A stretch of 64,000 nt of DNA from Ricordea florida (lineage: Eukaryota; Cnidaria; Anthozoa; Corallimorpharia; Ricordeidae): positions 2,365,001 through 2,429,000 of the forward strand of contig OX453277.1 of assembly GCA_949710005.1 (NCBI GenBank), read 5' to 3'. Made by a program: the position numbers and the translations under genes. Below, piece after piece: positions 100-8,560 of the stretch. Positions within the stretch are counted from its first letter, which is position 1. Each line of letters opens with the position of its first letter. A model generated the notes under the pieces. The model did no database searches, was not told the origin of the DNA, and saw nothing but the letters and a program-made list of their open reading frames with translations.

Positions 100-2753
100 A
101 TAAATGCATTAGCCTGAAGTTCCTTAACAAAATTCGTAAACCTATTAAACTGGTGTCCAGTATGAAGCCAGAGGGTTACTTGATAACTGCAGAGACCTTC
201 AAACTGAGGACCATCTTCAAACACCCACGAAAACACCATCACGTCATCTTTTACGCGCGTGACGCCGATGACAGAGACAATGAAGTCTTGCTGAATAACA
301 ATAACGCAATCGCTGTCACGCCAGGAGGATGTGACTTGCCTTTCAGGAGCGTGTTACTGTCACACCACGGGCAAATTGTGAACAAAGGTAAATATGATCA
401 AACGGCAGCAAACAGAGTTTTGTGTTGGGTTGTTTTGCTGTTGAATCCACACCACGTCACAACTAGGATTTCCAGCTGTATTTTGTGAAAATAAGCCTGA
501 CAATGTGTGGTAATGTGTAGATCACACGAGACTCGCGCGAAAAAAAAAAGAAATTGCTATACATTACGCCTTAATGCAGCTTTCCAAGTTCCCATGTGCC
601 CAGTTCAGTCATACCATACTAAGTAGCCTTGATAAGGGAAACATTGCAGTTCTTGCAAATTTTCAATAGTAATGAATGAGCTGGGCAAACATTCTTGTTT
701 TGTTCCAGTATATTAGTGAACATTGCTATTCCAAAGCGGATTTTTCTTTGATCTCTTGGATGCATCTCCTCCCGCTTGGAGCAACAATCTGAGCCATTCC
801 CCCAGCTTCCCGACGGTTTTACCGATTGCACCGTTATTTACTAATACTGTGTAACTAGTTATAACAGCAGCAAGAAGCTCTTAATCGACTTACCAGTCCT
901 TCGGAATTTTCTGTTTTCGCAGAAGTAGAACGTTTGCGCGAGGAAGATGAGTACAACGCGTCCATAGATGCAGCAAGTAAGGCTACCATCGTAGGACAAA
1001 AAGAAAACTTTAATCAATGGACCTCGTTTAGCAGTTGCAGTGCCACTTGTGGAAGAAGCCTCCAGACAAGAACACGCTCGTGCAAACCAGGCAAGATCTG
1101 CAAAGGAAAATCAGTTGAGATTAGAACGTGTATACAAACGCCATGTCCTGGTAAGAAACTGACCAACCTATATTGAGCACTCAACACGTTCAAAATACAA
1201 CTACGACATGTTCCCATGCTTTACCCGCGCTTGGTGATTCCGTTCTGATTGGTTCATTTGTGTGTACACCTTTTATGATTGGTCATAGCAATTTCTTTGG
1301 TTTAGTTTTAAGACTATCAACTGAAACACTGATCCCATTCTTTCTTGATTTTGCAGTGGTAACTTGTGTGAAGACTTACAGCGGAAAGTGCTGTGCTTTG
1401 CCGTTTGTTTATCGAGGTGCTGTCGTAAACCGCTGCCTGGTGGACCCGCAGACACATCATTCTTGGTGCGCCACAACACCCAACTTCGACAAAGAGAAAC
1501 GATGGGGTTACTGTCAGCCGTCAGGTAAACAGGTTATCACACGAGTATCACGGAGGACACATTATTGAATATTACGGACCGTTCGTTATTTTACGAAGAA
1601 GGAGGGGCTGGTGTGATTTTTTTTTTTTGGGGGGGGGGAAGCATGCGAGAAAAACGGCTTTCGAGGGGGCTCATTCCAAAAAAATAGGGAAAGTGGGGGA
1701 TCACCTGAAAATATTTTCGCAATACTTTGAAATAGCAAAATGTTTTAACAAGAGCCCATCAATGAAATCGCTGCTTCGAGAGGTGTGGGGGGGGGGGGGC
1801 ATGTAAAAAAAATTGGCAAGTTGAAGGGGGTCATGCAATTTTTAAATGGTTCTTCCCGATTAACACCAACCCCCCCCCCCCCTTCCCTCGTAAAAAAATG
1901 AACGGTCCCTTATGAGATCCCGTGGAGATACGAGATTGTGAAACATCAGAAGAGAAATTTTGTTTCATGAAACCAACTATGGAATTTTCTTTACGCTGAA
2001 TAGAATTTAGTGGTTTACCAATTGGTCGAAGATCGATAAAAACGCCATTTAGCCCGTAACATCACACAAAACAACAACAACAGTTTTTTTTTTGCCAGAC
2101 TAGGTACACATACACAGTTAAACTCCACGAACAACAACTGAGACTCCCAAGTTTAAATCATTTATCAAGGTTCGTACACTTTTTCAGGCCAAAAGTTCAA
2201 AGACTTTGAAATTTCAAGGACTTTTTAATAAGAACGTATGTGCGCGAGAGTAACGAGAAAGCATTGGAAACGAAAACAAGCGTTTTTACGCATTTTGTGG
2301 GCATTTCGAGAATGTTATACTTTGTTTACCTGAACATTTCTTGTCCCTGACTTTCATTTACTTTAAAACCTGAGCACTAATTTTTTTCGATCTTGTTAGA
2401 AAGACGATCACGTACGAACCCTGATTTCTACATAGTGCAGTGTTTTTGTTTCAGCTTCCAAGCAATCTTACTATTTCCGACACTTTCCAATTTCCGAGAA
2501 CTTATCACCTTGTTTCAAAATTATTCATGTAAAAATATTTGTGGTAGCTGGATGTGTTACTCTGCTCAATGGTAAATAACCTTATCCTTTTTCAGGCCCC
2601 CGAACTGAAAAGATGGCAGCGGTGATACGAAGCTTTCTCCCAGTCCCCCCAAATTCCCTTCAGCCACAAACAGCCCCATGCCCCCAGGGATGCAGGAAAG
2701 TCTGCATGGCTTGGTGTCAACGAAGTTGTTGCACCGCGAATGCAAAAGTTTGA
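100..2753 (+). CDS. TSP1 / fibronectin-II / minicollagen-type cysteine-rich domain protein, 3' part
   Basis: Four exons are readable: 100-387, 923-1150, 1357-1524 and 2596-2753 (stop TGA). All internal junctions are phase 1, typical of shuffled extracellular modules. Exon 1 encodes about 96 residues I do not recognise. Exon 2 carries a thrombospondin type 1 repeat (WTSFSSCSATCG, then RTRSC and TCIQTPCPG). Exon 3 is a fibronectin type II-like fold (CCALPFVYRG ... WCATTPNFD ... WGYC). The last exon has a short Pro-rich stretch, then CPQGCRKVCMAWCQRSCC, which fits the C-x3-C-x3-C-x3-C-x3-CC pattern of minicollagen CRDs that disulfide-crosslink the nematocyst wall. The 5' end, including any signal peptide, lies outside the window. 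The protein is probably secreted; a nematocyst role is inferred from the CRD only. Exons within 1525-2595 could have been missed. Confidence 0.78.
1575..1909. mobile_element. Harbinger-like MITE (TTA target duplication)
   Basis: About 335 bp bounded by inverted ends (GGACCGTTC on the left, GAACGGTCC on the right) and flanked by TTA at 1572-1574 and 1910-1912. The interior holds long G runs on the left and C runs on the right, so the arms pair over about 40 bases. It lies in the intron after the fibronectin-II exon. There is no coding capacity. Confidence 0.6.
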
Positions 2754-6345: not shown

Positions 6346-6659
6346 CTAAAACCAAGATGGAATTGAACTCTTCAAAAGCAATACCTTCCAACACTAGGAA
6401 GGCAATTATTAAATAGCCCATTTCCGAGTTGCTGTATACCTCAATTTCAAAGCGAGTCTTGGCGCACAACCATTCAAATGGAAATTAGTTGCGTATCAGT
6501 ATGCAAATCAAACTCATTTCCCTATCAGTTGTTAAGCACCAAGACTCACTTCATAACAGATTCAAACAGCAACTCGCAAACGACCCATTGCATAATAGAC
6601 GGCGAGAAGTCCATTCTTTTTGTCCCTCTGCGCAGACGTAAAGCTAAAGCTTGACGGAA

Positions 6660-7870
6660 GCTAAACACATTTTTAGACTATGTATGTTCGCGGATTCTTT
6701 TCACACTTGGATGGTCTGCATCAGCGGTGGTATTGAGAGCTATCCCTGTACTGTCACCTATTCTAGCAAAGTAACTGGCAATAAGCTCGGACACTTCATG
6801 CTGGTCTTGGACAATTTCATCTCCCTCCTTTAAGTGAATTGAAGTTTCTCCACAACCTTTATCTCTCAGAAATGGCGTGAATGTTTTGAAGAAGGTGCGT
6901 GGGTTTTTCCCAAGATCATCAGATCTCTCTTTCCAATATTGCCTTATGGCTTTTTTTCTAATAATGATAGTTGCAATATTGCGCCACTTCTTCCGCAATT
7001 GGTCGCTTTCATCAGTTTGTAGCTTCTTATGACACTTCGCGTACTTTCTCCTTTTCCTGACAGCTTCCTTCCATTCTCTGGTGATATAAGGGGCGTCCCT
7101 TTCCCTGACTCTTAGTTTCTTGATCGTTGTTGTATGCCTATCCAAAACTTCGGTAAGCGCGTTGAGCCACCGATTATACTGTTCCTGCGTACTCTAATAA
7201 TTATCAAGCTCCAGCGTACGCATCCGACTACAAACGTCTGCTCTCAGCGCATCAAGGTCGAAATGTTTAATACTTCGGAAAGATATGACTTTTGCTGGAT
7301 AATGCTTCACGTTCGGTTTCGGGTGATCAATGACAACTGACTGATCAAGCACCTCTGGTATGTGTGTAAGAACAACATCAAGCAGTCCCTTTTTTCATTT
7401 CGGTTCTTTGATCAGACATTCAAACTGCAAGATATCATCAAGATCCAACAATACTTTTCCCTTTACACTTATCGGCTGTAGTCTGTCCAGATTGAGGTCA
7501 CAAAGAGTAACGACGCTTTGCCTTTGTGAGCAAGCCCAAAGCTGCAGGCTGTTTATTTCCTATTCGATGTTTGTCAGGTACTAAAAGTATCACTTCTAGG
7601 AGGTCTGTAAATGCAAAGTACCACGCAGTTACAACCGCTTAGTTTAATGTCGAGTGCGATCACTTCAACAGTTGACTGCAATCCCTTCCTTGACATATAC
7701 TAGGACCCCACCCCTCCTTTCTTCCTTTCGTTCCGTTAAAGTGTGTAATTACTCAGTCTAAATTGGTTGTTGGTGTAGGTGGAATCAATTTTTGTTTCCG
7801 TAAGTATTAAGACACTAGTTTTCATTTTCTCGTTGATTAGCTTAAGTTCATCGACTTTATTTTGAAGACT
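6660..7870 (-). mobile_element. decayed non-LTR retrotransposon, endonuclease to linker
   Basis: Reading the minus strand from 7870 gives INSLQNKVDELKLINEKMK and then SVLILTETKIDSTYTNNQF, the usual opening of an AP-type LINE endonuclease. Between about 7600 and 7140, pieces such as IPEVLDQSVVIDH and QYNRWLNALTEVLDRH continue it in shifted frames. The block 7145-6678 (YITREWKEAVRKRRKYAK, RTFFKTFTPFLRDKG) is the linker before reverse transcriptase in CR1/L2-like elements. Frames are broken and the RT is absent, so it is inactive. Confidence 0.75.
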
Positions 7871-8365
7871 GTTAATGGTCAATGTACGAGTATATCTTGA
7901 CTGTGATGGTGTTGTCGGAGAAGAGACATATCCTCAAGTGTGTCATGTGCTGACTGTACACCATCGAACAACACAGTTTCAACGCTGTTAAAAGAGCCAT
8001 TTAGGGTATTGAACTTTGCATGGGTAGTTTGGGAGCATATCCAGGAGACACATCTGAGTACACGGTACATACCATCCCTGACTGTTGATACTCATGTACT
8101 GAAGGAACCGATTACTTGGAGCCTCCATATGTGCTGTACCCTTGAATCAACACTTTCCCGTAAAGAATGATTTTTAGAACAGGCTTTCCCGCGAAAATAC
8201 ATTCTTTGTTTGTTTGTTTCCGAGGACTTCTGCATATTGCCGTAATGAGAAAACTTCAGAACACAAAAGCGAATATGTAAATGAACATAACTGAACTGCG
8301 CTCTGATTGGTTGATTGGTTATTACGCATTAGGGGGTGGCAAATGTTCCACGAAACTATTTCTAG

Positions 8366-8560
8366 AAGTGAATATATAAGAAAGACCATTTATTTGAACT
8401 GCGGAGTAATATGTATTGACATTGATTGATCATCCCAGTTATGCACACAACTTAAGCAGCTGTGAAATTCAAGCCTGAAAAAAACTCAGGCCTGAACGGG
8501 ATTCGAACCCATGACCTCCGCGATACCAGTGCAGTGCTCTACCAACTGAGCTATCAAGCC
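8366..8560 (-). mobile_element. tRNA-derived SINE
   Basis: The minus strand starts at 8560 with a tRNA-like head containing an A box (TAGCTCAGTTGG) and a B box (GGTTCGAATCC), then an unrelated tail down to 8366. The anticodon loop reads CTGGTAT (GGT, Thr-like), but the anticodon stem is damaged. A second copy of the tail with a scrap of B box lies at 8620-8740, giving a partial tandem duplication. Confidence 0.8.

Follow-up and report, generated by a model that had tools for sequence, protein, structure and literature searches.

Minicollagen-type cysteine-rich domains (mCRDs) are a cnidarian device that builds a pressure-proof disulfide polymer. The locus studied here raises the question of what kind of protein carries a single mCRD behind a TSP1 and a fibronectin type II (FNII) module, and whether such a protein belongs in the stinging capsule. 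The gene reaches into the start of the window, a 64,000-nucleotide stretch of the Ricordea florida genome (C6:2365001-2429000; 538 Mb in 48 contigs); 40 kb of upstream sequence was added for gene assembly, and relatives were searched within this genome only.

Gene structure and modules

The assembled and translated chain is a seven-exon gene with an open frame to the stop and a product of 927 amino acids, 22 of them Cys (Table 1). Each of its six introns has GT-AG ends and a phase 1 position. Splice sites and frames of the four window exons were checked base by base and bear out the phase 1-1 chain of the initial annotation, which had also proposed that the full gene be sought upstream of base 1; three further exons lie there and carry an AbfB domain. 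The analysis shows this modelled structure, the module identities and the family context.

Table 1. Exons and C-terminal domain of the window gene, and loci carrying copies of its exon 4 domain
Feature	Position	Strand	Content
Exon 1	C6:2358835-2358904	+	upstream of window base 1
Exon 2	C6:2361566-2361844	+	upstream of window base 1
Exon 3	C6:2362453-2364045	+	upstream of window base 1
Exon 4	window 100-387 (C6:2365100-2365387)	+	VHL-beta-like domain (predicted), phase 1-1, unmatched in Pfam
Exon 5	window 923-1150 (C6:2365923-2366150)	+	linker and TSP1 (TSP1 ~1003-1149), phase 1-1, Pfam TSP_1
Exon 6	window 1357-1524 (C6:2366357-2366524)	+	FNII domain, phase 1-1, Pfam fn2
Exon 7	window 2596-2753 (C6:2367596-2367753)	+	proline-containing linker, mCRD, stop TGA 2751-2753
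mCRD, CPQGCRKVCMAWCQRSCC	window 2679-2732	+	CX3CX3CX3CX3CC pattern of PMC4863159
Exon 4 copy	C10, 22884838	-	5 strict mCRDs, polyproline in between, FNII
Exon 4 copy	C10, 22911898	-	4 strict mCRDs; polyproline-rich exon ahead of FNII exons
Exon 4 copy	C10, 22940352	-	5 strict mCRDs; polyproline-rich exon ahead of FNII exons
Exon 4 copy	C10, 23046186	-	polyproline-rich exon; one variant CRD, C-x3-C-x5-C-x3-C-x3-CC; FNII not seen
Exon 4 copy	C10, 22989889	-	Ala/Pro-rich exon; mCRD not found within 10 kb
Exon 4 copy	C6:14.10 Mb		FNII exon; mCRD not found in the stretch covered

The N-terminus is hydrophobic, the rest of the protein lacks any strongly hydrophobic stretch by hydropathy, and the start reads, by eye and by hydropathy, as a predicted signal peptide. 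A Pfam scan of the assembled protein up to E 10 returned only fn2 (9.5e-14, 51.6 bits vs a cut-off of 22.2), AbfB (5.7e-12, 46.4 bits vs 22.8), TSP_1 (9.2e-7, 29.4 bits vs 21.6) and TSP1_spondin. The TSP1 and FNII calls of the initial annotation, for which it had suggested an HMM search, therefore stand, as does its minicollagen-type domain; AbfB, the exon 4 domain and the paralogues had escaped it. AbfB, a carbohydrate-binding module, spans exons 2 and 3 (residues 62-149, profile positions 29-115 of 137). FNII domains bind collagen or gelatin, and TSP1 binds glycosaminoglycans. The 478 residues between AbfB and exon 4 hold 12 N-glycosylation sequons and have a high content of Gln, Asn, Ser and Ala.

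As to neighbouring sequence, exons resembling ionotropic glutamate receptors by eye lie on the plus strand, 7.9-11.6 kb ahead of window base 1, apparent retroelement remains, also judged by eye, occupy window positions 6600-7900 on the minus strand, and a tRNA-Thr gene is found at 8488-8560.

The exon 4 domain

Exon 4 appears to encode a domain of its own with a predicted pVHL-beta-like fold, an assignment that comes from one good model. The exon was also considered as part of the AbfB trefoil; this found no support, since the Pfam AbfB match is confined to residues 62-149, some 500 residues earlier, and the model matches pVHL. Sequence profiles are silent: neither the window domain nor any of eight family members has a Pfam VHL match up to E 10, and a PDB profile search with the family gave four chance-level matches (E 0.4 to 1.5). 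A second fold, with a paralogue placed first in the alignment, produced a poor model (pLDDT 66.0; 24 matches, pVHL not among them) that neither confirms nor excludes the likeness.

The VHL beta fold is an intracellular reader of hydroxyproline. Its pocket in pVHL includes Trp88, Tyr98, His110, Ser111, His115 and Trp117, as listed in PMC9528729. In an uncertain alignment, hhalign places Ser19 of the window domain on Trp88 and Phe50 on Trp117, and Tyr26, Thr37 and His47 were set on pocket positions by eye; on this placement the pocket residues are alike in part only. The window domain further differs from that of pVHL in lying within a predicted secreted multidomain protein and in lacking a Pfam VHL match; nor does the 927-residue protein have a Pfam match to the Elongin-binding alpha domain, although such a scan cannot exclude one.

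A bolder proposal is that a secreted VHL beta fold reads proline or hydroxyproline in capsule minicollagens and polyproline while the mCRD fastens it in place, the window gene then belonging with its C10 relatives to a family of proline-reading crosslinkers. Polyproline in the C10 relatives and aromatic residues at several pocket positions speak for it, and a C15 gene that probably encodes a secreted single VHL-beta protein, given its signal-peptide-like start, was counted on the same side. Against it, neither Trp position of the pocket holds Trp in the window domain and there is a single good model; the proposal is doubtful. The C15 gene is a short open frame at C15:12445608-12445835 (plus strand) with a Pfam VHL match of 3.2e-10; another VHL match lies 1 kb past it, and two more are on C9.

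The C-terminal mCRD and its relatives

PMC4863159 defines the minicollagen CRD as CX3CX3CX3CX3CC with a conserved Pro at position 11, attributes the switch into the C-type fold to Val/Ile at position 4 together with Pro at position 14, and calls the N-type CRD of Hydra monovalent. The six Cys of exon 7 follow this spacing exactly, an arrangement with a chance probability of 1.7e-6 for six Cys among the exon's 52 residues; a first-order Markov model yielded one such motif in all over 300 windows, each of 64 kb and read in six frames. The window mCRD has Gly4, Ala11 and Gln14. The missing Pro11 is equally missing in 17 of the 27 other distinct mCRDs; Pro11 is present in 10/28 and Pro14 in 21/28 of the set, whose loci were chosen by the queries of this analysis. 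Because of Gly4 and Gln14, the domain resembles the N-type at these positions, and by extrapolation from Hydra it may be monovalent. Searched against PDB sequences up to E 10, exon 7 has one weak match, the NOWA mCRD (2hm3, E 0.89), and as a genome query it matches only itself (one candidate scored).

A stronger argument than chance statistics comes from the family. At E up to 1 the exon 4 domain has ten matches, i.e., the window, eight copies at C10:22.88-23.05 Mb (minus strand) and one at C6:14.10 Mb, and nine of 13 genomic AbfB matches are on C10. AbfB lies upstream of all eight C10 copies (7/8 over the Pfam cut-off), and none was found upstream of the C6:14.10 Mb copy. Downstream sequence was covered for six of the nine paralogous copies (all but 22964747, 23010349 and 23023847; C10 22878000-22884838 is outside it), with exons joined by order and strand alone. 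Three C10 loci share the order FNII, FNII, mCRDs, FNII, and their four or five strict mCRDs each, set among FNII exons, strengthen the reading of the window tail as an mCRD.

TSP1 was rejected as a family feature: among at least 41 genome matches (150 of 302 candidates scored), none falls in C10:22.86-23.11 Mb or in the C6 paralogue at 14.08-14.10 Mb, so that TSP1 is, on this evidence, special to the window gene. In a poorly resolved tree of 17 FNII domains, which left out one of seven C11 loci (L006), the window domain sits on a long branch drawn next to C11 copies and does not group with the FNII domains of the mCRD-bearing paralogues.

Several other loci deserve mention. The C11 cluster comprises about 50 FNII exons (51 counted) across 165 kb (C11:26323832-26488290, minus strand), where AbfB and mCRD queries found no match. 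In the C6 paralogue, the presumed intron that separates the exon 4 copy from FNII holds a Polinton- or adintovirus-like gene set (14089-14102 kb, minus strand) with an A32-type ATPase (3.1e-11) and a capsid-like frame below cut-off (1.9e-4). A 661-residue open frame at C5:4761 kb (minus strand) has 10 strict mCRDs, and C8:32155153-32158160 (plus strand) combines polyproline and three strict mCRDs in adjacent exons, a CPP-1-like look.

Capsule adaptor or other matrix protein

Hydra offers the closest known designs. NOWA has a lectin domain and eight CRDs, and its authors propose tube-surface crosslinking through sugars (PMC10014300); CPP-1 and Cnidoin are non-collagen proteins fastened into the capsule wall by CRD disulfides (PMC6910907, PMC4321713). 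Like NOWA, the window protein joins a putative sugar-binding part to a C-terminal minicollagen CRD, but with AbfB, VHL-like, TSP1 and FNII modules and one CRD in place of a C-type lectin domain, for which the Pfam scan up to E 10 gave no match, and eight CRDs. It is CRD-bearing and collagen-free like CPP-1 and Cnidoin, and the C10 paralogues share polyproline with CPP-1; those proteins, however, have CRDs at both ends of a polyproline or silk-like core, whereas the window protein has a single terminal CRD and no proline run longer than 2. With minicollagens it shares the CX3CX3CX3CX3CC domain, but it lacks an N-terminal CRD and, across 927 residues, any Gly-X-Y run reaching four triplets.

Because the protein fits a NOWA-type design with other heads, we infer a cnidocyst matrix protein that is secreted and modular, an adaptor with one covalent anchor, and give this about an even chance. 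The predicted signal peptide, once cleaved, would admit it to the secretory pathway; AbfB, the VHL-beta-like domain, TSP1 and FNII would bind matrix ligands, be they sugars and glycosaminoglycans or collagen-like and proline-rich chains; and disulfide exchange would lock the single mCRD into the minicollagen polymer during capsule maturation. Expression would be in cnidocytes, and 'nematocyst protein' is a presumptive label. The intact phase-1 chain, the Pfam matches, the exact mCRD pattern and paralogues combining AbfB, the exon 4 domain, FNII, polyproline and 4-5 mCRDs argue for the adaptor. The lone mCRD with Ala11 and Gln14, its weak NOWA match, an exon 7 without sequence relatives in the genome, the separate placement of the window FNII in the poor tree and the two of six paralogues, one of them with an FNII exon, whose covered stretch yielded no mCRD argue against it.

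The main rival, tentative yet serious, places the protein outside cnidocytes, as a secreted matrix, mucus or adhesive protein whose CRD-like tail would crosslink and whose AbfB would bind sugars. TSP1 and FNII are matrix modules of general use. In an adhesive-gene study of Hydra, two transcripts with AbfB count among the genes specific to the basal disc (PMC5080974), and a mesoglea collagen of Nematostella that carries a minicollagen CRD is cited as unpublished (PMC4863159); by contrast, the strict mCRDs that three paralogous loci combine with polyproline next to FNII have the look of capsule proteins like CPP-1. Rather improbable is a tail that keeps the mCRD spacing without crosslinking, a cystine motif, degenerate or put to another use, that ends an ordinary adhesive protein: Ala for Pro11, Gln14, the single copy and the weak NOWA match would suit it, but the exact spacing is improbable by chance and Pro11 is dispensed with in most other mCRDs here. 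Least probable, exon 7 would be part of a different transcript, or the gene would end with the FNII exon by read-through (its frame is open to 1568, with a stop at about 1566), since the FNII-mCRD splice (1524/2596) is predicted from genomic sequence, but the donor and acceptor are good, phase 1 matches, the frame stays open to a stop, and mCRD exons adjoin FNII exons in three paralogous loci.

Proteins bearing mCRDs are known; for this set of heads no description was found in the searched literature, where no title or abstract joins an mCRD with FNII, AbfB or VHL. PMC12549020 may already mention VHL or FNII domains in Nematostella, as an index records the terms 'von Hippel-Lindau' and 'fibronectin type II' once each in its text. 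That an mCRD ends a binding protein of several modules, whose relatives form a cluster on a different chromosome, points to a capsule network that may accept exchangeable heads, something NOWA already hinted at. Lying beside proline-rich chains, a secreted VHL-beta-like domain would lend itself to a concrete and cheap binding experiment, and in corals and anemones the window gene and its relatives are candidates for cnidocyte markers.
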